From the NCBI RefSeq assembly GCF_001598915.1, contig NZ_BDAP01000001.1, positions 62,001 to 126,000 on the forward strand: 64,000 bases of DNA. The letters run 5' to 3'. Shown one piece after another: positions 23,120 to 41,858 of the stretch; position 1 is the first letter of the stretch, and each line of letters begins with the position of its first letter. A program made the translations under genes and the position numbers. This DNA comes from Williamsia muralis NBRC 105860. GTDB taxonomy: Bacteria; Actinomycetota; Actinomycetes; Mycobacteriales; Mycobacteriaceae. The notes below the pieces were generated by a model that ran no database searches, was not told where the DNA came from, and saw only the letters and a list, made by a program, of their open reading frames with translations.

Positions 23120-23224
23120 GTTCGCACACAGCTCTTGTGCAGTGTGGCGCTCACTGGTTGCCTGACGTGCACCGAATGAACCGTGGGCGAATGCCCACGT
23201 CAGTGATGGCGAGTGGAGGCCCCG

Positions 23225-24310: not shown

Positions 24311-25302
24311 GTGCCCCGGCCATCACCCCCGCGGTCATGCCGATCGGCAAGGCCATCAACTCCGGCCTGCGCAAAGCGATGGAGAAGGATCCGAAGGTGG
24401 TGCTCCTCGGCGAGGACATCGGCAAGCTCGGAGGTGTGTTCCGGGTGACCGACGGTCTGCAGAAGGACTTCGGACCGCAGCGGGTCATCGACACACCCTT
24501 GGCCGAATCCGGGATCATCGGCACAGCAGTGGGTCTGGCGATGCGCGGCTATCGGCCCGTGTGTGAGATCCAGTTCGACGGATTCATCTATCCGGCGTTC
24601 GACCAGATCGTCTCGCAGGTCGCCAAGCTGCACTACCGCACCGGCGGCAACGTGAAGATGCCCATCACGATCCGGGTTCCCTACGGCGGCGGAATCGGCG
24701 CGATCGAGCACCACTCGGAGTCGCCTGAGGGCTACTTCGCCGCGACCGCTGGTCTGCGTGTGGTCACCTGCGGTACCTCCGCGGACGCCCACCAGATGAT
24801 CCAGCAGGCAATCGAGTCCGACGACCCGGTGCTGTTCTTCGAACCCAAGCGCAGGTACTGGGAGAAGGGGCCGCTCGCCGAGGCCGGGGATGCCTACCCG
24901 CTGCACAAGGCCCGCGTCGTCACGCCAGGCTCGGATGTCACCCTGGTCGCCTACGGTCCCCTCGTCACCACCGCGGTGCAGGCGGCGAAGATCGCAGCGG
25001 GAGAGGGCCGTTCGATAGAGGTGATCGACCTACGCTCGATCTCCCCGCTTGATATCGACACCGTTGCGGATTCGGTTCGCCGCACCGGGCGCCTGGTGGT
25101 CACCCATGAGGCCCCGGTGTTCCTGGGTATCGGCGCGGAACTCGCGGCGCGCATCGGTGAGCGCTGCTTCTTCCATCTCGAGGCTCCGATCGCCCGCGTG
25201 GGCGGATTCACCCTGCCGTATCCGCCGGCCAAGCTCGAAGAACACTTCCTTCCCGACGTCGACCGCATCCTCGACGCCGTCGACCGCACGTTCGCATCGT
25301 AG
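24307..25302 (+). CDS. bkdB: 2-oxoacid dehydrogenase E1 beta subunit
   Basis: 331 aa transketolase-type beta subunit: VVLLGEDIGKLGGVFRVTDGL with the TPP-activating Glu, FDTPL-like IDTPLAESGIIG, EIQFDGFIYPAFDQI, YGGGIGAIEHHSESPE, and VIDLRSISPLD near the end. Forms the alpha2-beta2 E1 with the product of the preceding gene, to which it is coupled by an ATGA overlap. Confidence 0.9.
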   Translation: MSAPAITPAVMPIGKAINSGLRKAMEKDPKVVLLGEDIGKLGGVFRVTDGLQKDFGPQRVIDTPLAESGIIGTAVGLAMRGYRPVCEIQFDGFIYPAFDQIVSQVAKLHYRTGGNVKMPITIRVPYGGGIGAIEHHSESPEGYFAATAGLRVVTCGTSADAHQMIQQAIESDDPVLFFEPKRRYWEKGPLAEAGDAYPLHKARVVTPGSDVTLVAYGPLVTTAVQAAKIAAGEGRSIEVIDLRSISPLDIDTVADSVRRTGRLVVTHEAPVFLGIGAELAARIGERCFFHLEAPIARVGGFTLPYPPAKLEEHFLPDVDRILDAVDRTFAS

Positions 25303-25312
25303 GAGCCAGCTC

Positions 25313-26662
25313 ATGTCGACAACGCAGACCTTCTTGCTCCCCGATCTCGGCGAGGGACTCACCGAGGCCGAACTGCTCACCTGGCTCGTGGCGGTCGGCG
25401 ACACCGTCGAACTCAATCAGAACATCGCCGAGGTCGAGACGGCCAAGGCCTCGGTCGAGCTGCCCTCTCCCTATGCGGGAACTGTTGTGGCGCTGTATGC
25501 AGACGAGGGCGCCACCATCGAGGTGGGCAGGCCGTTCATCGACATCGCCGTCGAGGGCGCCTCGACTCGGGACCACACGCCGACTGCCCCGCAGAACCCC
25601 GTCTCATCAAGCCCTGCCCCGTCGGACTCACGTCCCGCGAGCAAGGAACGCACGCCGGTGCTTGTCGGGTACGGCGTGGCCGAGGAGAGCACGGGACGGC
25701 GTCGACGGCGGACGAACTCCACCGTGTCGATGGTCGATGCGGTTGTCACAGAGCAGGAGCGCCCGCTGGCCGCGCCGCCGGTTCGGTTCGCGGCCAAGCA
25801 GAACGGTGTCGATCTGGCCGAGGTGCCCGCCACCGGCGGTCGGGGGCAGGTCACCCGCGACGACCTCGAGCAGTACCTGGCCCGATCAGCTGCCGACCCG
25901 GTGCCCGAGCCCGTACCCGCGGCAGCTTCGGGCGATTCCGCCCGCCCTGGCGCGGCGGTGCTGGACGAAGAACGCACCCCGATCAAGGGGGTCCGCAAAC
26001 ACACCGCTGACGCCATGGTCCGCAGCGCCTTCACCGCACCGCATGTCACCGAGTTCGTCACCGTGGACGTCACCCCGGCCGTCGACCTTCTCGCACAACT
26101 CAAGGAGTCCAAGCACTTCCGGTCGGTACGCATCACGCCGCTGGCGTTGGTGGCCAAGGCCCTGCTCGTCGCACTGCGGTCCAATCCGTCGCTCAACTCT
26201 GCGTGGGACGAGGCGAATCAGGAGATCGTCACCAAGCGCTACGTCAACTTGGGAATCGCAGCGGCGACCCCGCGCGGCCTCATGGTGCCCAACATCAAGA
26301 ACGCCCACACGTTGAGCCTGCGTGACCTCGCCGAGGCGCTCACCACGTTGACGACAACGGCGAAAGAAGGGCGCACCGGTCCACAAGACCTGTCTGCGGG
26401 AACCATCACGATCACCAATGTCGGTGTGTTCGGGGTGGATTCGGGTACCCCGATCCTCAACCCCGGCGAGGCGGCAATCCTGTGCTTCGGCGCAATCCGC
26501 CGACAGCCGTGGGAGCACCGGGGTGAGATCGCCCTGCGGTCGGTGACCACGCTCAGTCTCTCGTTCGACCACCGGCTGGTCGACGGCGAGCAGGGATCTC
26601 GTTTTCTCGCAACCATTGCCGACATCCTGTCCGATCCCGTCACCCTGATCGCGCTGAGCTGA
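25313..26662 (+). CDS. bkdC: Dihydrolipoamide acyltransferase E2
   Basis: 449 aa: one lipoyl domain (residues 5-80, lipoyl Lys45 in VETAKASVELPSP), a linker, a peripheral subunit-binding domain (VRFAAKQNGVDLAEVPATGGRGQVTRDDLEQYL), an Ala/Pro linker, and the catalytic domain ending in SLSFDHRLVDGEQGSRFL with the catalytic His and Asp (HxxxDG). Transfers the acyl group to CoA and forms the core of the complex. The ATG follows E1 beta by 10 bp with AGGAG before it. Confidence 0.92.
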   Translation: MSTTQTFLLPDLGEGLTEAELLTWLVAVGDTVELNQNIAEVETAKASVELPSPYAGTVVALYADEGATIEVGRPFIDIAVEGASTRDHTPTAPQNPVSSSPAPSDSRPASKERTPVLVGYGVAEESTGRRRRRTNSTVSMVDAVVTEQERPLAAPPVRFAAKQNGVDLAEVPATGGRGQVTRDDLEQYLARSAADPVPEPVPAAASGDSARPGAAVLDEERTPIKGVRKHTADAMVRSAFTAPHVTEFVTVDVTPAVDLLAQLKESKHFRSVRITPLALVAKALLVALRSNPSLNSAWDEANQEIVTKRYVNLGIAAATPRGLMVPNIKNAHTLSLRDLAEALTTLTTTAKEGRTGPQDLSAGTITITNVGVFGVDSGTPILNPGEAAILCFGAIRRQPWEHRGEIALRSVTTLSLSFDHRLVDGEQGSRFLATIADILSDPVTLIALS

Positions 26663-26682
26663 GCGCACCCGGAGGAAAAGCC

Positions 26683-28059
26683 ATGACCGACATCCCCGAC
26701 GTCCTGATCCTGGGAGGCGGGTCGGGTGGGTACGCTGCGGCATTCCGCGCCGCCCAACTCGGCAAGACCGTCACCCTCATCGAAGAAGACAAGGTGGGAG
26801 GGACCTGTCTGCATCGCGGCTGTATCCCGACCAAGGCGTTGCTCCACGCAGCCGAGGTGGCCGACACGGTTGCCCACGCATCCAAGGTCGGGATCGGCGC
26901 AGAGCTCACCAAGGTCGACGTGGCGGGAATCCACGCGTACAAGAACTCGGTGGTCGACCGCTTGTACCGAGGCCTGCAAGGACTGGTGAAAGCCCACCGG
27001 GTCGACATCGTGAACGGCACCGGCCGCTATGTCGGGGGACGCAGCGTCGAAGTCGGAGGGACCACGTTCACCGGACGATCACTGGTGCTCGCGACGGGTT
27101 CGGCAGCCCGGACGGTGCCGGGTGTCGACCGCGGTGGTCGAGTCCTGACGAGTGATGACGCCCTCGAACTGCCCACGCTTCCCGAGCGGGTGGTGGTTCT
27201 CGGCGGCGGGGTGATCGGCGTCGAGTTCGCAAGCGTCTGGACATCTTTGGGAGCCCAGGTCACCATCGTCGAAGCGCTGCCACGATTGATCGCCACCGAG
27301 GACGAGTGGTCGTCCAAACAACTCACCAGGGCTCTCAAGAAGCGCGGCGTGACCGTCAGGACGGATGCGCGGTGCGAGGCTGTCACTCAACAGGCCGACG
27401 GGGTGACCGTGGCACTGGCAGGCGGAGACCTTCTCGAGGCGGACGTTGTGCTCGTGTCGGTGGGTCGTGGTCCGCGGACGTCTGGAAATGGCTTTGCAGA
27501 AGGCGGCATCGAGCTCGACGAGCGTGGATTCGTGCGCGTGGACGGCGCGCTGCGTACATCTCAGGACGGGGTATACGCGGTGGGCGACATCGTCGTGGGA
27601 CCACAACTCGCCCATCGCGGTTTTGCGCATGGCATCCACGTGGCCGAGGTGATCGCCGGACGCGATCGGGTTCTCGCCGAGGACTCCTGCATTCCGCGAG
27701 TCGCGTACTGCAATCCGGAAGTCGCATCTGTCGGGCTCACCGAGGCGCAGGCGCGTGAGAAGCACGGTGAGGTGTCAACGGTGGTCTACGATCTGGCCGG
27801 AAACGGGAAGAGTCAGATACTCGGAACCGGTGGTGGGATCAAAGTGGTGCGTGCGCAGAAGGATTCGGGACCGGTGGTCGGCATCCACATGGTGGGTGAA
27901 CGCGTCGGCGAACTGATCGGCGAGGCACAACTGACCGTGGGGTGGGGCGCCTACCCCGACGACGTCGCCGCGCTGGTCCATGCGCACCCGACCCAGTCCG
28001 AAGCGCTGGGTGAGGCGCACATGGCGTTGGCGGGGCTGCCGTTGCACAGCCACGGCTGA
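26683..28059 (+). CDS. lpdA: Dihydrolipoamide dehydrogenase E3
   Basis: 458 aa. FAD site LILGGGSGGYAAAFRA, redox disulfide Cys42-Cys47 in GGTCLHRGCIPTKALL, NAD site VVLGGGVIGVEFASVW, FAD site 2 VYAVGDIVVGPQLAHRG, and the C-terminal His-Pro-Thr-Gln-Ser-Glu (HAHPTQSEALGEA) that provides the active-site base. Re-oxidises E2 lipoyl groups. GGAGGAAA lies before the ATG. Last gene of the four-gene operon. Confidence 0.93.
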   Translation: MTDIPDVLILGGGSGGYAAAFRAAQLGKTVTLIEEDKVGGTCLHRGCIPTKALLHAAEVADTVAHASKVGIGAELTKVDVAGIHAYKNSVVDRLYRGLQGLVKAHRVDIVNGTGRYVGGRSVEVGGTTFTGRSLVLATGSAARTVPGVDRGGRVLTSDDALELPTLPERVVVLGGGVIGVEFASVWTSLGAQVTIVEALPRLIATEDEWSSKQLTRALKKRGVTVRTDARCEAVTQQADGVTVALAGGDLLEADVVLVSVGRGPRTSGNGFAEGGIELDERGFVRVDGALRTSQDGVYAVGDIVVGPQLAHRGFAHGIHVAEVIAGRDRVLAEDSCIPRVAYCNPEVASVGLTEAQAREKHGEVSTVVYDLAGNGKSQILGTGGGIKVVRAQKDSGPVVGIHMVGERVGELIGEAQLTVGWGAYPDDVAALVHAHPTQSEALGEAHMALAGLPLHSHG

Positions 28060-28075: not shown

Positions 28076-28708
28076 CTAGACGGTGGCACCTCTCCCGTCG
28101 AGTGCGGAGGCCGCCAGGTTGCTCGCCGCAAGCGGTTCGCCCTTGTCGACTGCCGCAGCCCACTGCTCGGTTGTCGCCACGGCCGCGAAGTTGGAGTTCA
28201 GCAGAACCATGATCGTCTCGTGTAGCTGCTGGGCAGATACCCTCCCGGCCTCGTTCGACAACGCTATGGCTCCGGTGGCGTCGGAGAGCACCTCGGTTGT
28301 GAACCCGAGCGACTCGGCGTGGGCGGCGGTTGCGATGTCGCAGTTGTTGGTCATGAAACCGACGATGGAGATGGTGTCGATACCGTTGTCTCGCAACCAC
28401 TCTGCAGCATCGGTGCCGGCGAACACGCTTCCGTACACCTTCTCGACGCGCTTCCATCCGGGTTGGACCAGTTCGGCGACCGCGGGGTGCAGTTCACTGC
28501 CCGGCGAGCCGGAAGCGAACACGGGTGCACCTGCCGGGAGGAGATGCTGAACCACCACGACGGGAATCGACTGCGCTGTGGCGACTTCGATCGCCCGTAC
28601 GACGTTGGTCAGCGAGTCCTCACGAGGTGGGTACTGGATCTCCAGAGGGCCGTCGAAGTACTCCTGCTGGACGTCGATGACGATGAGTGCGCGCCGAGGG
28701 GACGACAT
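28076..28708 (-). CDS. Isochorismatase-family cysteine hydrolase
   Basis: 210 aa. Catalytic Asp in ALIVIDVQQEYFDG and catalytic Cys in IVGFMTNNCDIATAAHAESLGF, the isochorismatase-fold pattern; a family Lys is expected in WKRVEKVYGSVF. Such proteins hydrolyse amides or enol ethers; this one lacks features of true isochorismatase partners. The start at 28708 has AGGAG 7 nt before it. Divergent from a GlxA-type regulator, its likely controller. Confidence 0.88.
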   Translation of the reverse strand: MSSPRRALIVIDVQQEYFDGPLEIQYPPREDSLTNVVRAIEVATAQSIPVVVVQHLLPAGAPVFASGSPGSELHPAVAELVQPGWKRVEKVYGSVFAGTDAAEWLRDNGIDTISIVGFMTNNCDIATAAHAESLGFTTEVLSDATGAIALSNEAGRVSAQQLHETIMVLLNSNFAAVATTEQWAAAVDKGEPLAASNLAASALDGRGATV

Positions 28709-28820
28709 GGATGGCTCCTTCTGGGTCAGGTGCGTGCTGGTGTACCCGCCATTCTTCGGATCGGACGTACACTGCGACAGTGGCCCATATGCACTCTTTC
28801 GATGAGATCGTGCCAATCTG

Positions 28821-29837
28821 ATGCGGATCGGCATCTATGCTTTCGACGGCATCACGTCGTTTCACCTGGCCACTCCCCAGATGGTGTTCGGCGAAGTGGC
28901 TCGGCTAGGCATCGACGCTGCATGGGAGACGTTTCTGTGGTCCGATTCGCCGGGGAGTATCAGAACGCTCGAGGGATACACGGTCGATTCGGTCGGCGGA
29001 CCGGAACTCGCTGACGGGGCCGGCATCATCGTTGTGCCGTCCTGGCCCGTTGATGCGCCGGCAATCGGTGATTCCCTGAGACAGAGCCTGATTCGTGCTC
29101 ACGATGCGGGCGCCATCATCGTAGGGCTGTGTCTCGGTGCTTTCGCCGTTGCCGATACCGGGATCCTGCACGGTCGCAGCGCCGTGACCCATTGGGAGGC
29201 GATGCCCCAACTCTCGCTCCGGCATCCGGACATCGTGCTGGACGATTCGGTCCTCTATGTGGACCACGGCGATGTGCTGACCTCTGCGGGCACCGCAGCC
29301 GCAATAGACGCGTGCCTGCACCTCATCCGCAACCACATCGGCGCGGCAGTTGCCGCCCGCGTGGCGCGAAGTCTGGTCGTGGCTCCGCATCGGGAGGGTG
29401 GGCAGGCCCAGTACATCGATCGGCCCGAGGCGCTTCCCCGGATCAACGGTGCCATCGCGGAGGTCCAGCACTGGGCACTCGAGCACCTCGATGAACCGCT
29501 CGGTGTTGATCGCCTGGCGACACACGCCCGGATGAGCCGGCGCAGCTTCATCCGGAAGTTCACACAAGAGACCGGATCGAGTCCTGCCAGATGGGTTCTG
29601 CGGCAACGCATCGGCGCTGCGCGGGCACTCCTCGAGAGCACGGACTGGGGGATGGATCAGATCGCCGACGCCTGCGGGTTCGGCAGCACCGTCACTTTCC
29701 GGCAGAACTTCGTCGCCATCCTGGCGACCAGCCCGACCAGCTATCGCCGCCAGTTCACGACGCAGAGCACGTCCACCGGCGACCGTGTGCAGAACCGCCG
29801 GCGGGACAGCCGGGAACCGGTCAGCGCGCGGCGTTGA
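28821..29837 (+). CDS. GlxA-family regulator (DJ-1/PfpI domain plus AraC DNA-binding domain)
   Basis: 338 aa. Residues 1-175 form a DJ-1/PfpI-like domain with the nucleophile-elbow Cys (IIVGLCLGAFAVADTG). Residues 215-315 carry two AraC helix-turn-helix units (DRLATHARMSRRSFIRKF and MDQIADACGFGSTVTFRQNF). It is divergent from the isochorismatase-like gene. Its last 17 bp overlap the end of the convergent FAD monooxygenase gene. Confidence 0.9.
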   Translation: MRIGIYAFDGITSFHLATPQMVFGEVARLGIDAAWETFLWSDSPGSIRTLEGYTVDSVGGPELADGAGIIVVPSWPVDAPAIGDSLRQSLIRAHDAGAIIVGLCLGAFAVADTGILHGRSAVTHWEAMPQLSLRHPDIVLDDSVLYVDHGDVLTSAGTAAAIDACLHLIRNHIGAAVAARVARSLVVAPHREGGQAQYIDRPEALPRINGAIAEVQHWALEHLDEPLGVDRLATHARMSRRSFIRKFTQETGSSPARWVLRQRIGAARALLESTDWGMDQIADACGFGSTVTFRQNFVAILATSPTSYRRQFTTQSTSTGDRVQNRRRDSREPVSARR

Positions 29838-30939
29838 TCGCGAACCGCTGGTTGCGTGCCCGCAGTTCGGACTCGGTGGCCGGAACCATGAAGTCGCGGG
29901 CTTCGTGAACGCCTTCTTGCGCGGTGGCCACCCGCGGGCGCAGCAACTGCTCGTAGCGGGTGAACGCGATGTCGTGGGCGGCGCCGGCTTTTGTCATCTC
30001 CGACACCAGGGTGTGAGCACCGATCATCGCCAGTGAGGTGCCTCGTCCGGAAAAGAGTGATGCGGCATGTGCAGCATCGCCGATCAGGACCACCCGCCCG
30101 CTCGACCACCGGGGCATGTGCACCTGGCTGACCGAATCGAAGTACAGCCTGTCGGCATCGGCGACAGCTTGCAGCAAAAACGGGGACTCCCAACCCTGCT
30201 CGCCCTTCATCAGGTCGACCAGCACCCGCTTCTGGTCGACGAGGTCACGGTTGTCGTAGTCGACCTCGGGGGTACGAGCGGCCATGAATCCGATTGTGCG
30301 CGAGCCGAAGTCCGTGATGCAGAACATGCGGCCGGGGGTGTTGTAGGTGACGCTCTCGCCCGGGGTTCCCGAACCCAGGGGAAGGTCGACAAAAGCGGTA
30401 TAGGTGTCGAGATGCCGGCGGAAGGTGGTCTCGGGTCCGAACACGGCTTCTCGGACCGTCGAATGGATACCGTCGGCGCCGATGACGAAGTCGAAGGCGC
30501 CTGTGCGGCCGGACGCCAGCGCGACATCGACGGCTGCACCGGTGTCGGTCACGTCCACGATCGAGTCGTCGTAGACGAACTCGACATTCGGGCCGATGGC
30601 GCCGTGCAGGATTCCGATCAAGCTGTCCCTGGCGATCTCGACGTCGTCGGCCGAGTCGGTGGCGAACTCGTTGGGGAGCACGGCAATCGGGTGGCCCTGA
30701 TCGTCGACCCAGGTGGTGAAGGCCTCACGGCCGGACGTCGGCACCCTGCTGTCGCGGATGTCGCCGAGGATTCCCATCGCGTCAGCGACCGCGAGTGCGT
30801 CGCCACGGATGTCGATCGGGGACCCTGCAACCCGCAGTGCCGGTGCGCGCTCCACCACTGTGACCTCGTGACCGGCCTTCTCGAGCCAGAATGCAACCGA
30901 GAGACCGGCGACGCTCGCTCCCGAAACCAATACAGCCAT
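29821..30939 (-). CDS. FAD-dependent monooxygenase (PHBH/TetX-like class A)
   Basis: 372 aa. FAD GxGxxG-type start VLVSGASVAGLSVAFWLEKAGHEVTVVER, DG motif GADGIHSTVRE, and GD motif GRVVLIGDAAHAASLFSGRGTSLAM. Class A flavoprotein hydroxylases use NAD(P)H and O2; substrate unknown. GGAGG precedes the ATG. The gene is divergent from the alpha/beta hydrolase with a TTGGATCC-type box between them, placing it in the GntR-linked catabolic cluster. Confidence 0.88.
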   Translation of the reverse strand: MAVLVSGASVAGLSVAFWLEKAGHEVTVVERAPALRVAGSPIDIRGDALAVADAMGILGDIRDSRVPTSGREAFTTWVDDQGHPIAVLPNEFATDSADDVEIARDSLIGILHGAIGPNVEFVYDDSIVDVTDTGAAVDVALASGRTGAFDFVIGADGIHSTVREAVFGPETTFRRHLDTYTAFVDLPLGSGTPGESVTYNTPGRMFCITDFGSRTIGFMAARTPEVDYDNRDLVDQKRVLVDLMKGEQGWESPFLLQAVADADRLYFDSVSQVHMPRWSSGRVVLIGDAAHAASLFSGRGTSLAMIGAHTLVSEMTKAGAAHDIAFTRYEQLLRPRVATAQEGVHEARDFMVPATESELRARNQRFAINAAR

Positions 30940-30974
30940 GGTGGCCTCCTTCAGATCTGAGCCCGCATTTGATC

Positions 30975-31004
30975 GTATGCAATTCGGCTACAATAGGATC
31001 CAAT
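30975..31004. promoter_or_regulatory. TTGGATCC-type operator, site 1 (FAD monooxygenase / hydrolase gap)
   Basis: AATAGGATCCAAT at 30992-31004; the identical 13-mer occurs at 34188-34200. A weaker copy (GTATGCAA, 30975-30982) lies 21 bp upstream of the core. Sits in the divergent gap between the FAD monooxygenase and the alpha/beta hydrolase. Confidence 0.55.
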
Positions 31005-31074
31005 CTAGCATTGTGTGCGTGTTCGCGCACTCGATTGCGACGATGTTTTCCTCCCATCGAGAAAGAAGATCGAC

Positions 31075-31854
31075 ATGTCAGACATCGTGGTCACGCTCGG
31101 AGACGGCAGATCGGTGCCATGCATCGTAAAAGGTTCTGGCGCACCGCTGTTGCTGATCCATGGGGCCGAGAGTGATCGGACGCAGTTCGCCGACCTGATG
31201 ACACGGCTGCCATCCGGCCTGCAGGCAGTCGCCTACGATCAGCGCGACACCGGCGACCAGGTCAGCCCAGATGAGCACTACACGATGGACGCCATGGCAG
31301 ACGACGCCGCCGAGGTGATCGAGGCATTGCAATGGTCGAAAGTGCACGTCCTCGGAACCTCGTACGGTGGCGTGGTTGCCCAGTTGCTGGCGATCCGGCA
31401 TCCGGAGCGGGTCAGAACACTGTCGTTGGTGTCGACCACCGGTGCGTACTCATGGCTGGCCGGATTCGCGGAGAAGTCGAAGAAGATGTCGGCCGCCGCG
31501 AGGGCCCAGACCATGCTCGACGCCGCGGTCAGCCCAGACGCGCGAGCGGCCGATCCATCGCTTGTGGACCGTATCCGGGCGGCCTTGGTGGACCGGACAG
31601 CCGAGCAGCACGCCCGGCGGATGAACGCACTGAAGCAACACGACTCGAGGCAGCAGCTTCACCGGATCGGTGTGCCCACTCTTGTCGTGCACGGCGCCGA
31701 CGACCCGGTGATCCCGATCGCCGCAGGTCGGGAGTTGGCCGGTCACATTCCGGGGTCCGTATTCTGGGAGATCCCGAAGGCGCGGCACGCCACCGCATTC
31801 GAGTACGGCGACGAGTTGTCCGGGAGGGTGGCGACCTTGGTCCAAGGCCGATGA
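31075..31854 (+). CDS. Alpha/beta hydrolase
   Basis: 259 aa. Oxyanion region LLLIHGAESDRTQF, nucleophile elbow LGTSYGGVVAQL (Ser), acid in VVHGADDPVIPI, and His in PKARHATAFEYG. A small cytoplasmic esterase/C-C hydrolase type; substrate unknown. The start at 31075 is the family-like MSDIVVTLGDGR. Head of a transcript facing away from the FAD monooxygenase. A strong hairpin follows the stop. Confidence 0.87.
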   Translation: MSDIVVTLGDGRSVPCIVKGSGAPLLLIHGAESDRTQFADLMTRLPSGLQAVAYDQRDTGDQVSPDEHYTMDAMADDAAEVIEALQWSKVHVLGTSYGGVVAQLLAIRHPERVRTLSLVSTTGAYSWLAGFAEKSKKMSAAARAQTMLDAAVSPDARAADPSLVDRIRAALVDRTAEQHARRMNALKQHDSRQQLHRIGVPTLVVHGADDPVIPIAAGRELAGHIPGSVFWEIPKARHATAFEYGDELSGRVATLVQGR

Positions 31855-31886
31855 TCGAGCCGTGATCCGGGTTGGTCGAGCCACAC

Positions 31887-31920
31887 GAAGGGGGTGCCTC
31901 CGAGCGGAGGCACCCCCTTC
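31887..31920. terminator. Bidirectional hairpin terminator
   Basis: Perfect 15-bp stem (GAAGGGGGTGCCTCC and its reverse complement) around a GAGC tetraloop, between the convergent alpha/beta hydrolase and APC permease genes. Confidence 0.85.
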
Positions 31921-31934
31921 TGCGGTGGCCGATC

Positions 31935-33368
31935 TCAATCGGTGAGGTGCTCCTCCAGGTCGTGGCCATGGCCACGGCGCCGGTAGACGACGGCCCCGTA
32001 GATCGCGCCGATGACGGGGATCGCCGGCATGGCGGCGACGATCCAGGAATCGCTGCCGGTGACGTCCTGGTAGTTGATCACGACGATGACCCCGATGGCG
32101 GTGAGCAGCAGGCCGGAGATGGCCGGTGCGATCTTCGACGACCATGCGGTCTCTCCGTCGAGCCGACCACGCATCGAGGCGACGACAACACTGAGGGAGC
32201 AACCGATCATCAGGCCGATGATCGACAGTGACGTGATGCCGGAGACCGCCGGAAAGAGATTGATGATGGGGTCGGACTTGGCGATGACAAACGGTACGAG
32301 AACGATCAGGGAGATGGCGATCTGAACGGCACACGACACCTGTGGCGTGCCGAAACGGGGATGGACGTCAGCGCATCGTTCCGGCAACAGCCGCGACCGG
32401 CCGAGCGCGAACATGTAGCGCGCGGCCATGTTGTGGAAGGCAACCGCAGCGGCCAGGAAGCTGAAAGCGACGAGCAGGCTGAGCATCTCGTCGGACCATC
32501 CACCGAGGTATTCGCTGGCGGTGGCGAAGATCAGGCTTCCCGGATCCTCGGCGGCCACGGTCTGGACGTCAGGAAAGGCTGCCACGATCGACCACGTCGA
32601 ACCCATGAAGACCAGAACAAGAAGCGCCAGAGCGCAGTACGTCGCAACCTTGATGCTGCGTCGCGGTGCGCGAGCCTCCTCGCCGTAGATCGCGGTGGCC
32701 TCGAAGCCTGCGAATGACAGCACGCAGAACACCAGCGACAGCGCGAGATTGCCTTCGAACATCCGGTCCGGGGCAAACACGTTGAGGGAGAAACCCTCCG
32801 GGCGCTGGACGAGAATTGCAATCCCGAGCCAGATGATGATGCCGAACTGGGCGATGGAGACCAATGAGGTCACCTGTTTCGTGATCTCCACACCCACCAG
32901 TCCGAGGACTGCGGTGATCACCAGTGCTATTGCGCCGTAGACGTACCACGGCAGGTCGATGTCGGTCATCGTGCCCACTGCGATGTCGGCGAAATAGCCC
33001 GTGGCAGCGATCATTCCAGCGGCAGCAAGGTTGTAGGCGACCGTCGCCACGAATGCCGAACCGGCCCCGGACGCCTTGCCGAGACCGTAGCCGATGAATG
33101 CGTAGTAGGCACCGGCGTTGATGACCCGCCGACTGAGCACCACGTAGCCGGCCGTGAAGATGGCGAGCAGTATGCCGACCAGGACAAGCAGTCCGACAAG
33201 TCCCTCACCGACTCCGAAGGCCAGGCCGATCGAGAGGTTCGACGCCATCGCGGTCAGGGGAGCGGTCGCGGCGACGACCATGAACACCATGCCGGCGACG
33301 CCGATGGTGTTCTTCTTGAGTTGATGTGTTTCTACCGGGCTCGTGAGCTCGTCGTTGGGGACGGCCAT
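31935..33368 (-). CDS. APC superfamily amino acid/amine permease
   Basis: 477 aa with about twelve membrane segments. It begins NTIGVAGMVFMVVAATAPLTAM, the GVxGMVFMVVAAAAPLT form of actinobacterial APC carriers, and keeps FAGFEATAIYGEEARAPRRSI. The tail is His/Arg-rich and cytoplasmic. The start at 33368 has AGGAG 8 nt before it. Likely imports the substrate of the cluster; downstream of the cupin gene on the same strand. Confidence 0.87.
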   Translation of the reverse strand: MAVPNDELTSPVETHQLKKNTIGVAGMVFMVVAATAPLTAMASNLSIGLAFGVGEGLVGLLVLVGILLAIFTAGYVVLSRRVINAGAYYAFIGYGLGKASGAGSAFVATVAYNLAAAGMIAATGYFADIAVGTMTDIDLPWYVYGAIALVITAVLGLVGVEITKQVTSLVSIAQFGIIIWLGIAILVQRPEGFSLNVFAPDRMFEGNLALSLVFCVLSFAGFEATAIYGEEARAPRRSIKVATYCALALLVLVFMGSTWSIVAAFPDVQTVAAEDPGSLIFATASEYLGGWSDEMLSLLVAFSFLAAAVAFHNMAARYMFALGRSRLLPERCADVHPRFGTPQVSCAVQIAISLIVLVPFVIAKSDPIINLFPAVSGITSLSIIGLMIGCSLSVVVASMRGRLDGETAWSSKIAPAISGLLLTAIGVIVVINYQDVTGSDSWIVAAMPAIPVIGAIYGAVVYRRRGHGHDLEEHLTD

Positions 33369-33498
33369 GTCTTCTTCTCCTGGTGAGGGTATCTGTCTGT
33401 GGGGATCAGGGCGCACGGAATCGCAGTCGGGCATCGCCGCCCCATGGTGGTGTCTGCGGTGGCGCCGCTGGGGCGCCGATGGTCAGGTGGTCAAGGAC

Positions 33499-33912
33499 TC
33501 AGCGATCGGCGGGTGTGGTGAACGACCCGCGATCGTTGTGCTGCCAAGGCAATTCAGCCTCGCTGGGCGAGGTCTCGAGCAGTTCTACGACGTAGTGGGT
33601 GACGGTCTCGTCACCCAGGTTGCGGATGCGGTGAGGATTGAGCGGCTTCGCCGATCCCACGGTCTTGTAGAGGACAAAGCCGGGCTCCGCGTGCTGCGTG
33701 ATGCCCCATTCGTCGTCACCCAGTTCCTGCCCCTGGGCGTTGCCCGCTGCAGGCCAGATGACGACGTGATCATGGTGGTGCTGATGAAAATCGAACATCC
33801 CTCCGGGTTCGAGCGTCATCGACCACACGCGCACTCGATCGTTTTCGAAGATGAGGGTGTCACCGGGCGTCGGGGGAATGGCGGTGCCGGGACGGGTCGG
33901 GGTGTCGGCCAT
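33499..33912 (-). CDS. Cupin-fold protein
   Basis: 137 aa single cupin domain. The metal-binding HxH...E pattern is in GGMFDFHQHHHDHVVIWP, followed by later strands to PLNPHRIRNLGDETVTHYVVELL with a second-motif His. Small cupins of this kind serve as isomerases, dioxygenases or sensors; function here unknown. AGGAG lies 8 nt before the ATG. Its promoter region carries TTGGATCCAA and a second copy 20 bp away. Confidence 0.8.
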   Translation of the reverse strand: MADTPTRPGTAIPPTPGDTLIFENDRVRVWSMTLEPGGMFDFHQHHHDHVVIWPAAGNAQGQELGDDEWGITQHAEPGFVLYKTVGSAKPLNPHRIRNLGDETVTHYVVELLETSPSEAELPWQHNDRGSFTTPADR

Positions 33913-34223
33913 GTGAGTTGCTCCTAGCGGGTGGTGAAGTGCTGTATCCAGTGTTGCTGATCAGAACGCAGTTCGTAGTTGGATCCAAGAAATTGAAACA
34001 GGATGCAACGGCGACCTTGCCACTTCGCGAACAGCTCGTCAATAGGAACGACCGGTTATCTACGCAGGTAGGCGATGTTTCGAAGACGTTACACCGCCCG
34101 ATTCGCGGTATGCAGTGGTCGGATGACCGTCGCGAGTTGCCCACGTAGTGAGCGCATCTCCGGTCCTGTATGGCTACTATTCGAGTGAATAGGATCCAAT
34201 AACGAGTGCCAGCGAGGTTGACG
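33913..34223. promoter_or_regulatory. Divergent control region with TTGGATCC-type operators, sites 2 and 3
   Basis: 311 bp without a gene, between the cupin and the GGT-like gene. Site 2: TTGGATCCAA at 33979-33988 with a related AACAGGATGCAAC at 33997-34009, cores 20 bp apart. Site 3: AATAGGATCCAAT at 34188-34200, ending 23 bp before the GGT-like ATG, preceded by the inverted repeat CTATTC-GAGT-GAATAG (34177-34192). These suggest one repressor acting on both genes. Confidence 0.6.
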
Positions 34224-36011
34224 ATGCCCTTCACGCCCCCGAGTGAGTTCCTCACCCGCCCAGACCTCAAGGGAACCTTCGGGATGTCGGCTTCGACGCA
34301 TTGGCTGGCGTCGGGTGCGGCACAGTCGGTGCTGGAACGCGGTGGTAACGCCTTCGACGCAGCCACGGCTGCCGCGTTTGTGTTGCACGTTGTCGAACCG
34401 CATCTGAACGGCCCGGGTGGCGACATGGTCGGCATCGTCTCCCCGGTGGGCAGACCGCCGCAGGTGCTGATGGGCCAGGGCCCGGCGCCGGCCGCAGCCT
34501 CCATCGCTCACATGCGTCGACTCGGTCTGGACATGGTGCCGGCGTCTGGTGCACTCGCCGCCGCGGTGCCCGGTGCGGTGGATGCGTGGTTGCTGCTCCT
34601 GCGCGATCACGGCACCTGGGAGCTGAGCGACATCCTCGATTACGCGATCGGCTACGCCGACAACGGCCACTGCCTGTCAGGACGAGCGTGCGCGGTGATC
34701 GCCACCGTCGCCGATCTCTTCTTCGAACACTGGCCGACATCGGCAGCGCTGTGGATTCCCGACGGTCGCGTGCCACTCGCCGACCAGTTGTTCAAGAATC
34801 CGGCGTACGCGGCGACTCTTCGACGGCTGATCGCCGCAGGCCGGGACCGACGTTCGCGATCGGAGCGGATAGAAGCCGCGCGTACGGAGTGGGGCTCGGG
34901 GTCGATAGCGGCTGAGATCGATGCGTTTGTGCGACAACCGCATCGGCATTCATCCGGGCGGGACCATCGAGGGGTGCTGGCGCTCGCTGACATGGCGGCG
35001 TTCAGCGCCTGCTGGGAGCGTCCGGTGGCCTTCGGCTTCCGTGGATCGACCATCCTGAAGTCCGATGCCTGGGGGCAGGGGCCGGTGTTGCTGCAGGCGC
35101 TGGCCATCCTCGACGAACTGCCCGACGAGGATGTCGATCCGTCGACCGCGGTGGGCGCACACAATGTCCTCGAGGCGCTCAAGCTGGCCATGGCCGATCG
35201 AGAGGCGTACTACGGCGACGGCCTCGACCGGTCGCAGCTCGAGGTGTTGCTGTCACGGGAGTACGCCGCCGTTCGCCGCAAAGAGATTGCGTGGCATGCG
35301 TCCACCGAGTTCCGGCCCGGGGTGTGCGGCATCGATCCGTACGTGCCCCCGCTGGTGGAAGCCGCGGGCCAGGCGTCGGGCGGCGCGACCGGCGAACCGA
35401 CCGTCACCGTCACCGGCGAGACGCGCGGCGACACCTGCCACATCGATGTCATCGACCGGTGGGGCAACGCGATCTCGGCGACTCCCTCGGGCGGGTGGCT
35501 GCAGTCGTCGCCGACCATTCCCTCGTTGGGTTTTGCTCTGGGAACACGACTTCAGATGACGTGGCTCGACCCGGCCAGCCCGTCTGCCCTTCGCCCCGGG
35601 AAGAGGCCGCGGACCACGCTGACCCCCACCATGGTGATGCGCGATGGATGGGCGGTTGCGGCGCTGGGCACGCCCGGTGGCGATCAGCAAGACCAATGGC
35701 AACTCAGTTACCTCCTGCGAACGCTCATCGGTGGCTACACACCTCAGCAGGCGATCGATGCCCCGACCCTGCACACCACGTCGATGCCGGGCTCGTTCTG
35801 GCCACGCACCTGGGAACCGGGAGGGGCAGTGGTCGAGGATCGGCTGGGGGAGGCGGTGATCGGGGAACTCGTCGCTCGTGGGCACCACATCACCCGCGCC
35901 GGTGATTGGTCACTGGGCCGACTGAGTGTGGTCACCCGCGACCCGTCTTCCGGGGTCCTCGGGTCGGCTGCCAATCCTCGTGGGGCACAGGGTTATGCAG
36001 TCGGGCGATGA
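34224..36011 (+). CDS. Gamma-glutamyltransferase-like Ntn hydrolase
   Basis: 595 aa of the GGT superfamily: HWLASGAAQSVLERGGNAFDAATAAAFVLHVVEPHLNGPGGDM at the start, then the autocleavage Thr404 in RGDTCHIDVIDRWGNAISATPSGG. In classical GGT the motif is TTHxSVVD; here the residue order is DTCHIDVID, so the nucleophile is kept but its neighbours differ. There is no signal peptide, so it is probably cytoplasmic, like oxamate amidohydrolase HpxW of the same superfamily. GAGG lies before ATG 34224. Probably hydrolyses an amide in this cluster's pathway. Confidence 0.82.
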   Translation: MPFTPPSEFLTRPDLKGTFGMSASTHWLASGAAQSVLERGGNAFDAATAAAFVLHVVEPHLNGPGGDMVGIVSPVGRPPQVLMGQGPAPAAASIAHMRRLGLDMVPASGALAAAVPGAVDAWLLLLRDHGTWELSDILDYAIGYADNGHCLSGRACAVIATVADLFFEHWPTSAALWIPDGRVPLADQLFKNPAYAATLRRLIAAGRDRRSRSERIEAARTEWGSGSIAAEIDAFVRQPHRHSSGRDHRGVLALADMAAFSACWERPVAFGFRGSTILKSDAWGQGPVLLQALAILDELPDEDVDPSTAVGAHNVLEALKLAMADREAYYGDGLDRSQLEVLLSREYAAVRRKEIAWHASTEFRPGVCGIDPYVPPLVEAAGQASGGATGEPTVTVTGETRGDTCHIDVIDRWGNAISATPSGGWLQSSPTIPSLGFALGTRLQMTWLDPASPSALRPGKRPRTTLTPTMVMRDGWAVAALGTPGGDQQDQWQLSYLLRTLIGGYTPQQAIDAPTLHTTSMPGSFWPRTWEPGGAVVEDRLGEAVIGELVARGHHITRAGDWSLGRLSVVTRDPSSGVLGSAANPRGAQGYAVGR

Positions 36012-36039
36012 TCGGCGCGGACGGTGGGATCTGTGACGG

Positions 36040-36756
36040 TCAGGGTGTGAAGGTCTCTTGTGATCGGCTGGTGATGAGTTCGCGTGCCCGGCGGGAGTGT
36101 TCGATCATCAGGTCCCGGGCAGCGTCGCCGTCGCGACGGTCGATGGCCTCGACGATGCGTGCGTGCGCGTCGGCGTTCTCGGCCAGCAAGCGTGGGTCGG
36201 CGTCAAGTGCCGTCCATGTGAGGTTGCGGGGGATCCGGTGATGCAGCGACGACACCGTCGCGGTGAGTTGAGTGTTCCCGCCCGCGTCCAGGATCGTGTC
36301 GTGAAAGGTGGAGTTGGCCTTGACCCAGCGCTTGCGAAGCTCTGCAGGCGTGGACTCCCCGTCGAGGGCAGCCTGCACGACGGCACGGAAATCATCGACG
36401 GCCGCGTAGAGAACCTGCAGTTGAGAGTGGGTGATCAACCGGGCTGCCTCGTGGGCGGCGTGCCCCTCGAGCAACGCCCTGACCTCGAAGACCTCGGTCA
36501 ACTCGCGCAACGACGGCTGACGGGGCCGGGCTCCGCGGTTGGGGACGATCTCGACGACGCCCAGAGCCTGCAGTTGGCCGAGCGCTTCACGGATCGGCAT
36601 CCGGCTCACGCCGAGTTCTCTGGCAAGCGACTCCTGGCGTATCCAGGTCCCAAAGTTGTACTCGCCGCGGCTGATTCGCTCCGCGATCGTGTCCACGAGC
36701 TGCTGGACCAGCGGCGAGGTGGCTCCGGCGGGCTCACCGCCGCCGTTCTGTGCCAT
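36040..36756 (-). CDS. GntR-family regulator (FCD subfamily)
   Basis: 238 aa. N-terminal winged helix (LVDTIAERISRGEYNFGTWIRQESLARELGVSRMPIREALGQLQALGVVEIVPNRG) and a C-terminal all-helical FCD ligand domain with metal-binding residues (FEVRALLEGHAAHEAARL, STFHDTILDAGGN, HARIVEAIDRRDGDAARDLMIEHSRRA). AAGGAA precedes the ATG. It is divergent from the DHDPS-like gene, with a TTGGATCC box in the 38-bp gap, and is the best candidate for the factor that reads the boxes at 31.0, 34.0, 34.2 and 36.8 kb. Confidence 0.92.
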   Translation of the reverse strand: MAQNGGGEPAGATSPLVQQLVDTIAERISRGEYNFGTWIRQESLARELGVSRMPIREALGQLQALGVVEIVPNRGARPRQPSLRELTEVFEVRALLEGHAAHEAARLITHSQLQVLYAAVDDFRAVVQAALDGESTPAELRKRWVKANSTFHDTILDAGGNTQLTATVSSLHHRIPRNLTWTALDADPRLLAENADAHARIVEAIDRRDGDAARDLMIEHSRRARELITSRSQETFTP

Positions 36757-36783
36757 CGATTTCCTTCCGCAGACGTCTCGAAG

Positions 36784-36793
36784 ATTGGATCCA
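36784..36793. promoter_or_regulatory. TTGGATCC-type operator, site 4 (GntR / DHDPS-like gap)
   Basis: ATTGGATCCA ends one base before the ATG of the DHDPS-like gene and lies 28 bp from the GntR start. Same palindromic core as sites 1-3. Binding here would block both genes, giving autoregulation. Confidence 0.55.
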
Positions 36794-36794
36794 G

Positions 36795-37685
36795 ATGAAT
36801 GCTACTGACTCGGCCGGTGCAGTGTGGGCAATGGTACCCACGCCCTTCACACCAGGCGGCGAACGTATCTGCGAGCAGTCCCTCCGGGCGCTGACCCGCG
36901 AAATGCTCGGGCGAGGATGTACGGGATCGATCGCGCTCGGGGTCATCGCCGAACCGGCCTCGCTCTCGCTCGACGAGAAGATGACGGTGCTCGATGTCGT
37001 GATCAGCGCATCGCAAGGCGCTCCCGTCATCGCCACGGTCATGTCACTGGACCCGGCGGTCGCGGCGGACGAGGCGACAGCGCTCGGCACACGGTTCGGG
37101 ACGTCGTTGGCAGGAGTGATGATCCCTGTTCGATCAAGCGACGCCGATGTCGTCAGACGTTCAATTGTTGATACGCACCGCCTCAGCAATCTGCCGGTGA
37201 TGGTGCAGGATCTGCCGTCGGCCACCGGTGTCCGCATCGACATCGACGATCTGGTCGGTGCACTGGCAGGTCTGGAATCGTCGTTGATGGCGGTCAAAGC
37301 CGAAGCACCTCCGTCATTTTCGAGAATCCGCAGACTCCGGGAAGACGTCGGCACCGTGGTCGTTTCCGGCAACGGCGGGATCGGCGTGGTCGACGACTTT
37401 CTGGCCGGAGCCCGGTGGGCTGCTGCCGGGATCACGCGTCCCGAGGTACTGGTGCAGGCAGTCAGGCGCATCGAGTCGGGCGACCTCGCGGGTGCACAGC
37501 GAATGATCGACTCTGTGGCCTCGCTGATCTCCTACGAGACCCAACCGGGCACGAGCATTGCGATCCGCAAGGAGCATTGGCGACGGCAAGGTGTCATCGC
37601 CGACTCGGCTGTCAGGCGCCCTACGATGTCGTACGACCCGGCATTCGACGTCCACAGCGAGCGAATGGGTTTCGCTGCCGGCTGA
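36795..37685 (+). CDS. Dihydrodipicolinate synthase-family lyase/aldolase
   Basis: 296 aa. A TIM barrel with AMVPTPFTPGGERICEQSLRALTREMLGRGCTGSIALGVIAE at the start and the Schiff-base Lys168 in SLMAVKAEAPP. The family's usual Tyr in YN(x)P is replaced (PVMVQDLPSATG), so it is not a true DapA. Members of this superfamily cleave or form 2-oxoacid aldols. There is no ribosome site because the operator abuts the ATG. Overlap with the GntR gene is avoided by this start. Confidence 0.8.
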   Translation: MNATDSAGAVWAMVPTPFTPGGERICEQSLRALTREMLGRGCTGSIALGVIAEPASLSLDEKMTVLDVVISASQGAPVIATVMSLDPAVAADEATALGTRFGTSLAGVMIPVRSSDADVVRRSIVDTHRLSNLPVMVQDLPSATGVRIDIDDLVGALAGLESSLMAVKAEAPPSFSRIRRLREDVGTVVVSGNGGIGVVDDFLAGARWAAAGITRPEVLVQAVRRIESGDLAGAQRMIDSVASLISYETQPGTSIAIRKEHWRRQGVIADSAVRRPTMSYDPAFDVHSERMGFAAG

Positions 37686-37738: not shown

Positions 37739-38437
37739 ATGACATCCCCGAAAGAACCGGCACTTCTCGACCGCGTCGAAAGGCGGGGCTTGGTCCTGAT
37801 GTTGGTACTCACGTTTGTCACAGGGGTGGTCGATGCGGTCGGCTACCTGGGGCTGGACCGTGTCTTTGTGGGGAACATGACGGGAAACATCGTCATCCTC
37901 GGAATGGGTGTCGCGGGCGCCGACGATCTCCCCGTCCTCGGACCCGCCATTGCGCTCGGCACCTTCGTGATCGGGGCTTTCGCCGCTGGAATGGTGTTGC
38001 GGCGCAGGCCGAAGGGTTGGACAACGGCCGTGACAGGTTGCCTTGCTGCAGGTTCGGTGATTCTCGCCGCCGCGGCGACAGCTGCCGCCCTCTTCGACAC
38101 CGAACACTCTGTGTCGGCTCAGATCTGCGTTGCCGCGGCAACGGCCGCCGCGATGGGCATCCAGGCGTGCGTGGCACGCAAGGTTGCCATCGCAGACATG
38201 ACGACGGTGGTGGTGACTTCCACCTTGACATCGCTGGCCGCCGAGACATGGACCCGTGGTGGTCGAACTGCTCTGTGGAACCGCCGATTCGGCGCCATCG
38301 CAACGATTTTCGTCGGAGCTTTGATCGGTGCCCTGCTACTGGCGGTGAGCGCCGTGGGTGTCGCGCTGGCCGTCGCCGCGGGGTTGTCGGTCCTGGTGAC
38401 CGTGATCGGGCACTTTCAGCTGCGAGCCTCGGCCTGA
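37739..38437 (+). CDS. DUF1275 (YoaK) membrane protein
   Basis: 232 aa, six or seven membrane segments. Family marks: LMLVLTFVTGVVDAVGYLGLDRVFVGNMTGNIVILGMG and later QACVARKVAIADMTTVVVTSTLT. Function of DUF1275 is unknown; a transporter role is often assumed. TTGGAG lies 6 nt before the ATG. It follows the DHDPS-like gene by 53 bp and may be the export or uptake partner in the cluster. Confidence 0.85.
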   Translation: MTSPKEPALLDRVERRGLVLMLVLTFVTGVVDAVGYLGLDRVFVGNMTGNIVILGMGVAGADDLPVLGPAIALGTFVIGAFAAGMVLRRRPKGWTTAVTGCLAAGSVILAAAATAAALFDTEHSVSAQICVAAATAAAMGIQACVARKVAIADMTTVVVTSTLTSLAAETWTRGGRTALWNRRFGAIATIFVGALIGALLLAVSAVGVALAVAAGLSVLVTVIGHFQLRASA

Positions 38438-40731: not shown

Positions 40732-41676
40732 TTACTTGGTCTTCGGGTCGTCCGCTGCAGCGATCTCGACTTCGGCTGTGGCCTGGATCAGCGCCAGCAG
40801 TTCCTTGTCGAGGCCGGGTGCGAACTCTTCCTTGCGTTCCGGCGCGATGGTCATGGGGAAGCCTTCGGGCATCACGGCGGTCGACAGTTCGGTTCCGTCG
40901 TTGGACGGCGACGCTCCGCGGTAGAGCTTCGCAGCTTCACTCTGGTCGTCGGCGCTGAACGTGTACTGGATGCTCTGCAAACCCTTGTCGAGGAGCTTTT
41001 TCACCTCGGGGAACGACTCCGCGTTCGTCTTGGGGATCGGCAGCACCTTGCCCCAGTTCACGCCGAGACTTTCCAGCGCCTTGGCGAAAGCGTTCTCGTG
41101 GGCCTGATCGCGCACGATCAGATAAGAAATCGTCGAACGCGCCGCTTTGTTGTCGGTCATCTCGTAGATCCGGCATTTCTGCAGTCGACCGGTCGACTCC
41201 AACATCAGGTTGTATAGCAGGTCGAGGACCAGGTTTCCGCTGTTGTAGACATACGACCCCAACCACGGGTTGCCGGCGGCGTCCACCGGCAGCGCACCCT
41301 GTGCGCCCACCAGGTAATGGTGGATATTGCTGGTGTCGAGAGCGATCTTCAGCGGCGTCGCGCCCTTGGCGCCCGGCTTGTCGACGGGATCGGTCTTTTT
41401 GCCGTTGTACTCAGGCGACCCGTCCAGAAGGCGGGAAATTGTGGTTCCGATCAGCTCGACGTGGCTGATCTCCTCGGTCCCCACGCCCTGGAGCAGGTCT
41501 TTGTATGCCTTGGACGACGCATCGCCGCGGAAGTTCATCGACTGGAAGAGGTACTGCATCATCGTGCGCATCTCGCCGAACTGACCACCCAGACCCTCTT
41601 GCAGCGCGTTCGCGGCTGCGGGATCGGGCTCGTCGATGGCGATCTCATTGATCAACTGCTGTGTGTGCAAGTACAC
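40732..41676 (-). CDS. katN: Manganese catalase
   Basis: 314 aa. Di-manganese ferritin-like fold with the metal ligands in place: Glu35 in GGQFGEMRTMMQYLFQ, Glu/His in TEEISHVELIGTTISRL, and Glu/His in RDQAHENAFAKALESLG. Converts hydrogen peroxide to water and oxygen in the cytoplasm without haem. GTG start with AGGAG 6 nt upstream. Single gene with its own terminator; the 180 bp upstream are AT-rich and hold its promoter. Confidence 0.92.
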   Translation of the reverse strand: MYLHTQQLINEIAIDEPDPAAANALQEGLGGQFGEMRTMMQYLFQSMNFRGDASSKAYKDLLQGVGTEEISHVELIGTTISRLLDGSPEYNGKKTDPVDKPGAKGATPLKIALDTSNIHHYLVGAQGALPVDAAGNPWLGSYVYNSGNLVLDLLYNLMLESTGRLQKCRIYEMTDNKAARSTISYLIVRDQAHENAFAKALESLGVNWGKVLPIPKTNAESFPEVKKLLDKGLQSIQYTFSADDQSEAAKLYRGASPSNDGTELSTAVMPEGFPMTIAPERKEEFAPGLDKELLALIQATAEVEIAAADDPKTK

Positions 41677-41858
41677 GATTTCTCCTCAAGATTATTTCGG
41701 TGAAACGACCGGAAAACATAAACTGAATGCATTTGTTCACCGACTCAAAGCGGGCGGAAACGGCGTCTTTGTATTCGCCCACCGCATTCGGAGCAACCGG
41801 TCAGTCGTCTAGTACCCATGTAATTTCAGATCAAACCGACGTGTCCGTATTAGGGATG

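Follow-up and report, generated by a model that had tools for sequence, protein, structure and literature searches.

Described FCD-type systems and the boxes of the window

FCD-type regulators of the GntR family are represented among described systems by Atu1419, a VanR-type repressor of hydroxycinnamate degradation in Agrobacterium fabrum that on DNA binds the 10-bp ATGTATACAT, Arg45 reading G3 and Thr46 touching A5 (PMC7797058), and by HypR and TM0439, with a metal site of one Asp and three His (PMC6608401). Operators of the FadR subfamily are TKGT/ACMA palindromes with 2 or 3 bases between (PMC4494728). LmbA2991 is an actinobacterial GGT homologue shown to hydrolyse a C–C bond; according to the figure 7 legend of that 2017 paper, beyond LmbA-like proteins none in its network was characterised (PMC5519988). 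We analyzed a stretch of 64,000 nt from Williamsia muralis NBRC 105860 (contig NZ_BDAP01000001.1; hereafter the window, to which all positions refer), in which short palindromic boxes stand in the gaps of a gene cluster encoding an FCD-type GntR regulator, a GGT-like hydrolase and presumed catabolic enzymes (Table 1). Comparison of sequences across genomes makes it probable that the boxes are operators through which this regulator represses the cluster, paired at two promoters. On the best reading, the consensus would be the 10-bp palindrome TTGGATSCAA, sometimes as a tandem pair.

A pattern search of the window located AATAGGATCCAAT in identical copies at 30992–31004 and 34188–34200, and the related forms TTGGATCCAA and ATTGGATCCA at 33979–33988 and 36784–36793, respectively, in agreement with the original prediction; the weaker second copies that it mentioned (ATCGTATGCAAT and ACAGGATGCAAC) were found as well, and the copy near 4824, taken there for a chance occurrence, was coding (inside an open reading frame, ORF, at 4309–5022 on the minus strand). 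The rarity of the 8-mer TTGGATCC in 64 kb had been overstated: it gave 6 matches at 5 places against a shuffle mean of 2.04, and 4 of 100 window shuffles reached 6. For ATTGGATCCNATT with up to three mismatches, 31 matches stood against 22.13 expected, a count reached in 6 of 100 shuffles. Window statistics alone are weak evidence; comparison across genomes is strong evidence.

In the 5.54-Mb genome, TTGGATCCWW occurred at 9 distinct places, three of them boxes 1–3 (box 4 falls outside this pattern). Four of the six other places (L004, L006, L023, L025) lay under an ORF with high third-position GC and one (L022) near the 5' end of a 428-aa ORF; the last (L024) was covered by no listed ORF of this kind of at least 100 aa. 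TTGGATCCTA had two places genome-wide, both of them boxes of the cluster. ATTGGATCCTAT was found twice exactly, never with one mismatch, and 45 times with two, the latter including reverse readings of the two boxes. Since these 47 matches compare with 20 for a reversed control pattern, weaker sites may exist elsewhere in the genome.

Nine Williamsia genomes were searched. Each of the 13 ATTGGATCCTAT matches lay inside the cluster, and the exact box tracks the gene set: the seven genomes that carry it also have the GntR and GGT-like genes, whereas G059 and G106, which lack it, had no GntR and, at E ≤ 1e-60, no GGT-like gene. The shorter TTGGATCCWA had 17 of its 30 distinct places in the clusters, which by our own estimate make up about 0.1% of the DNA of these genomes; the remaining 13 were distributed one or two per genome, G059 and G106 included. 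An even spread over the genome, set beforehand as the outcome that would speak against a regulon, was therefore not observed.

Conservation in Williamsia and recurrence in distant relatives

Seven Williamsia genomes, the window's own included, share one gene order: monooxygenase, hydrolase, permease, cupin, GGT-like, GntR, DHDPS-like and DUF1275. By the regulator, the near relatives are Williamsia muralis, W. limnetica, W. soli and Williamsia sp. 1138. At E ≤ 1e-40, GntR matches were limited to 7 of 251 genomes of the family, all of one genus and including the window's own, and an alignment of eight proteins used as query found 2 of 394 class genomes at the same threshold, one again being the window's own. 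The seven fall into two clades, four near-identical genomes and a second clade (L019, L020, L021) whose GntR is 84–87% identical. The GGATCC core was kept in 28 of 28 cases (four boxes in seven genomes).

Flank identity was computed for two gaps, those of boxes 1–3, over ungapped columns only; in the comparisons with the second clade this left out 25–38 gapped columns. Outside the boxes, the region 30940–31074 was 95–98% identical inside the window's clade and 62–63% identical to the second clade; for 33913–34223 the values were 80–88% and 50–51%. Columns invariant in all seven genomes numbered 57 of 150 and 78 of 289, respectively. Box 1 was identical in all 12 bases in 7/7 genomes, and in 10 of 10 core bases in L019, L020 and L021. 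Against the same three loci, box 2 matched in 9, 9 and 9 of 10 bases (8/10 core columns invariant in all seven), box 3 in 10, 10 and 9 (9/10), the second box of pair 1 in 9, 9 and 9 (9/10), and the second box of pair 2 in 9, 9 and 8 (7/10). The spacing of pair 1 was 21 bp in six genomes and 20 bp in L021, and that of pair 2 was 20 bp in all seven. For box 3, no partner scoring above 11 at 20–21 bp was seen among the top five sites of its gap. In the pair scan the Williamsia DHDPS-like gap was cut at the start codon, which places box 4 and a coding-side partner outside it.

The weights of the box score were set by hand when the boxes of Williamsia, R. koreensis and G324 were already known; unseen at that point were only the G723 locus and 20 GGT-like loci. 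Seven sites in the window scored at least 15: boxes 1–4 and the weaker box of pair 1, together with the coding copy at 4820 and a site at 41722. The last of these, ACTGAATGCATT (41722–41733, score 15), lies near a ferritin-like ORF (40732–41676), recurs in L016 at 15288, and may be a chance or an unrelated conserved site. The cupin box of L019 scored 14, under the threshold of 15. As a control for pairing, 58 of 5000 chunks had a second site of at least 12 at 20–21 bp from the best one, the chunks being drawn from the same loci with the real boxes included.

The sole plasmid record with a GntR match (74–75% identical) was from R. koreensis. This plasmid (L015) carries dehydrogenase genes, DUF1275, DHDPS-like, GntR, GGT-like (74%), cupin and permease genes, with ATTGGATTCAAA ahead of the cupin and ACTGGATCCTAT, with a partner 21 bp away, ahead of the GGT-like gene. 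A search of 149 genomes of another family gave matches in G324 and G723. In G324 (L089; GntR 40% identical), monooxygenase, permease, DHDPS-like, GntR, DUF1275 and GGT-like genes stand together; the permease is preceded by ATTGGATGCAGT and ATTGGATGCGAT, and the GGT-like gene by ATTGGATGCAAT and GAAGTATGCAAT, each two 20 bp apart, and the DHDPS-like/GntR gap holds a single ATTGGATGCAAA. In G723 (GntR 41%), ATTGGATGCAAC is found in the monooxygenase/permease gap and ahead of the GGT-like gene. Scored blind, the 19.5 kb of this locus gave two sites of at least 15, each in a gap that adjoins regulon genes. The box of the GGT-like gene is accompanied, 20 bp away, by a weaker site that scores 12; in the monooxygenase/permease gap, a 21-bp spacing separates two weak sites scoring 13 each, and the main box takes no part in it.

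We also fetched 21 GGT-like loci (L080–L099 and L101, the 20 best class hits without the window's own plus Embleya). Only L089 had a GntR match at E ~1e-40; six others had weaker GntR-family proteins (28–34%). The 20 loci other than L089 contained five sites of at least 15 in 353 kb; the box is no companion of the GGT-like gene as such. One of the five, ATTGTATTCAAT in L082, lies directly upstream of a DUF1275 gene.

The regulator and its putative mode of action

The regulator has an N-terminal GntR winged helix (PF00392, 2.2e-15, residues 17–76) and a C-terminal FCD domain (PF07729, 5.9e-24, residues 88–221). Its best PDB matches were 7xp0 (4.2e-17) and 6z74 (1.1e-9), the second of which we take to be Atu1419, an FCD repressor. 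Residues N148, H152, H198 and H220 were invariant in five aligned regulator proteins; by spacing, rather than by alignment with HypR, the histidines resemble the HypR/TM0439 metal site, Asn148 standing where HypR has Asp138. Set against the TKGT/ACMA operator type, the palindrome and its 2-nt spacing agree, and the fourth base, G and not T, does not. The Arg at the place of Arg45 of Atu1419 is kept (R52), and Met53 occupies the position of Thr46 of Atu1419, where the relatives with GGATGC boxes have Thr; with two lineages against two, a tie between Met53 or Thr and GGATCC or GGATGC is only a hint.

We infer the following mode of action. A GntR dimer would bind the palindrome TTGGATSCAA, and at the monooxygenase/hydrolase and cupin/permease promoters the weaker box 20–21 bp away, two helical turns off, would be occupied, on the same face of the DNA, by another dimer or by the remaining half of a tetramer; the pairs fit an Atu1419-like tetramer binding two palindromes. 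Without substrate, the regulator would cover the promoters of the monooxygenase, hydrolase, permease, cupin, GGT-like and DHDPS-like genes and of its own gene, keeping output low. A small carboxylate derived from the substrate of what would be a single import-and-breakdown pathway may then occupy the FCD metal site and release the regulator. The actinobacterial −10 element has the form TANNNT. TAGGAT, found in boxes 1 and 3, directed at the hydrolase and GGT-like genes and kept in 7/7 and 6/7 Williamsia genomes, respectively, could be such an element, and this overlap could be why these two boxes depart from a perfect palindrome on that side. Because boxes 1 and 3 contain this possible −10 element, repression by covering the promoter is the likeliest mode.

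Several observations weigh against this reading. A consensus scan found no sigma-70-like promoter at any box, and the last base of the 12-bp form of box 4 (36784–36795) is the A of the DHDPS-like ATG. The core is GG/CC, and the usual one of the FadR subfamily is GT/AC (PMC4494728); in the same survey, the average score of the control positions lying 20 and 21 nt away was near zero, and paired sites with such a spacing are therefore no general feature of the family. Conservation within the genus rests on about two independent clades (four of seven genomes near-identical, flanks 80–98%), and the cupin genes of L019 and L020 contain an extra TTGGATCC. The R. koreensis boxes are more deviant than the others: its GntR/DHDPS-like gap has TTTGGATCCCTT with a score of 14 and a neighbour at 12 bp, not 20–21, and its permease gene contains one site of score 15. 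No site scoring above 12 was found in the DHDPS-like and GntR promoters of G723. Finally, the presence pattern of the box in Williamsia is that of the whole cluster (the GGT-like gene is present in the same 7/9 genomes); because the rest of the cluster shares it, the pattern of seven with and two without does not single out GntR.

An alternative that leaves the boxes as GntR operators is that the regulator activates, or acts either way depending on box position, which we consider unlikely. The boxes are indeed differently placed, box 4 touching a start codon, box 2 standing 65 bases from the cupin start and boxes 1 and 3 containing TAGGAT, and a related activator, CitO, is described (PMC6608401); however, boxes 1 and 3 overlap the possible −10 element in the direction of the gene itself, and the binding sites of the repressors Atu1419 (PMC7797058) and HypR (PMC6608401) overlap −10 regions.

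Reading of the boxes by another regulator, be it AraC/DJ-1 (28821–29837), the AsnC-type protein whose gene precedes the dehydrogenase operon, or a remote one, appears very improbable. AraC-type and AsnC-type genes do lie near the cluster in the window, and box and cluster come and go together, a co-occurrence that by itself names no reader. The AsnC gene was considered in the window only. AraC can be dismissed as the reader: L019–L021 have no AraC match and L018 only a short stretch, with the boxes intact there. The exact box, rare elsewhere, is ill-suited to a global regulator, and a GntR was found in 10 of 10 clusters carrying boxes. The proposal that GntR is the natural reader thus gains support from the comparison, in which the box recurs beside GntR relatives of 74% and 40–41% identity in other genera and families. 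A chance cluster of a BamHI-site-like palindrome, for which the shuffles reaching the observed count could speak, is practically excluded: the boxes are conserved at four places in seven genomes, concentrate in the cluster and turn up again beside distant GntR relatives.

Cluster genes and likeness to known systems

The features of the cluster are listed in Table 1. The monooxygenase scored 217 bits against a tetracycline-destructase model, under the cut-off of 550, and the alpha/beta hydrolase 131 bits against TIGR02427 (cut-off 256). The small cupin had no Pfam or NCBIfam match, and its assignment as an oxalate decarboxylase was unsupported (E ~0.3). The nearest PDB entries of the GGT-like protein were 6j3a/6j3i (8.4e-184), with the RGDTCH motif aligned; D403-T404 of this motif aligns with 6j3a and with residue 1 of GGT small chains, in keeping with the D-T self-cleavage motif. 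We infer that 6j3a is LmbA2991 (617 residues, Thr at 421, a 197-residue small subunit, peptide TCHLDVVDRW). The Ser-Ser of GGT 4y23 (PLSSMTPT) is Thr-Thr in the GGT-like protein and in 6j3a. Because the nearest structures are LmbA-like and Thr-Thr replaces Ser-Ser, gamma-glutamyl transfer is not a safe reading. Our best guess, given that the same cluster encodes a permease, flavin monooxygenase, hydrolase and DHDPS-like enzyme, is that it serves to take up and degrade an amide or amino-acid-like compound.

Table 1. Boxes and genes of the cluster in the window
Feature	Position	Strand	Remarks
Box 1, ATAGGATCCAAT	30993..31004	+	Gap of the divergent monooxygenase and alpha/beta-hydrolase genes
Second box of pair 1, ATCGTATGCAAT	30972..30983	+	21 bp from box 1, centre to centre
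Box 2, GTTGGATCCAAG	33978..33989	+	Upstream of cupin and permease; 65 bases to cupin ATG
Second box of pair 2, ACAGGATGCAAC	33998..34009	+	20 bp from box 2
Box 3, ATAGGATCCAAT	34189..34200	+	23 bases ahead of the GGT-like gene ATG
Box 4, ATTGGATCCAGA	36784..36795	+	Gap of the divergent GntR and DHDPS-like genes
FAD-dependent monooxygenase	29821..30939	-	Pfam FAD_binding_3, 1.8e-15
Alpha/beta hydrolase, distantly PcaD-like	31075..31854	+	Pfam Abhydrolase_1, 3.9e-27
Amino-acid (APC) permease	31935..33371	-	Pfam AA_permease_2, 3.7e-19
Small cupin	33499..33912	-	PDB cupin 9u8n, 8.3e-10
GGT-like Ntn-hydrolase, actinobacterial LmbA-like kind	34224..36011	+	Pfam, 2e-106; predicted nucleophile Thr404
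GntR regulator, FCD type	36040..36756	-	Proposed box reader; co-occurs with boxes
DHDPS-like aldolase/lyase	36795..37685	+	Pfam DHDPS, 1.8e-11
DUF1275 (YoaK-like) membrane protein	37739..38437	+	Pfam, 1.6e-35; downstream of the DHDPS-like gene

Membership of the DUF1275 gene in the regulon is uncertain. In other genera and families a DUF1275 gene is found near the GGT-like gene in L081, L082, L087, L089, L101 and L106, directly adjoining it in L087, L089, L101 and L106. A 2-oxoacid dehydrogenase operon (E1, E2, E3; 23213–28059) adjoins the cluster in Williamsia, and the R. koreensis plasmid has E1a and E3 homologues 5.7–10.9 kb from the cluster on the opposite side; the operon was rejected as a regulon member, no site of at least 15 preceding it in the window. 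The isochorismatase-like and AraC/DJ-1 genes between operon and cluster (28076–29837) are outside the conserved gene set: they were seen in the window's clade only, L019–L021 having no match to either and L018 retaining a short AraC stretch. In L019 (6187–7070; G040), the DHDPS-like gene is in two pieces in different frames, which suggests a frameshift or a sequencing error. L026 (NZ_JNYV01000002.1, titled Kitasatospora arboriphila NRRL B-24581 and matching G092, which is placed in the window's genus) is probably a mislabelled Williamsia assembly; its traced proteins are 91–100% identical.

Open-licence literature gave nothing pairing TTGGATCCAA with GntR, nothing for 6J3A or 6J3I and no useful lead for PmiR; judged by title, it held nothing on this system for GGATCCAA with GntR and operator, and nothing relevant for a GGT/GntR/Rhodococcus catabolic cluster among the matches listed. 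A motif seen by eye has become a defined, predicted regulon of one regulator, four operators and about seven genes, and a GGT homologue of the LmbA2991 kind has gained a presumed catabolic setting. GGT-like relatives at E ≤ 1e-120 occurred in 73 of 394 sampled class genomes, the window's own included. The identity of the inducer would point to the substrate.

Among the closest known systems, Atu1419 (PMC7797058) shares the FCD type and two palindromes in one region, its palindromes overlapping −10 boxes; its operator ATGTATACAT and TTGGATCCAA are alike in the length of 10 bp, G3, C8 and a central AT. The two operators nevertheless differ in sequence, Thr46 stands against Met53 here, and the Atu1419 palindromes lie 190 bp apart (looping), in contrast to 20–21 bp. 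HypR of Streptomyces coelicolor (hydroxyproline use) resembles our regulator in being an FCD-type GntR of an actinobacterium, with His residues at a metal site and a regulon for catabolism, but its operator is CTNTGC(A/C)ATGTCAC, of unclear symmetry (PMC6608401). With the FadR-subfamily survey (PMC4494728), our boxes share the 2 bases between recognised steps and extra weaker boxes by the main site; they differ in TTGG/CCAA versus TKGT/ACMA and in the distance of the second box, 20–21 bp as opposed to half-sites 7–12 nt away. LmbA2991 and Ant6, GGT homologues cleaving a C–C bond, have the same D-T motif and a small subunit starting T-C-H, whereas our enzyme belongs to a catabolic-looking cluster with a permease, a monooxygenase and a DHDPS-like enzyme (PMC5519988). 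A new class of regulon—an FCD repressor acting as a dimer pair or tetramer on palindromes two turns apart, with a T-to-G change of the fourth operator base tied to Thr-to-Met in the recognition helix, and controlling a catabolic route with LmbA-like hydrolysis of a C–C or unusual amide bond instead of a gamma-glutamyl one—is conceivable, if doubtful. As a GntR regulon the system is of an ordinary kind; paired putative operators and the GG/CC core are its particular features.

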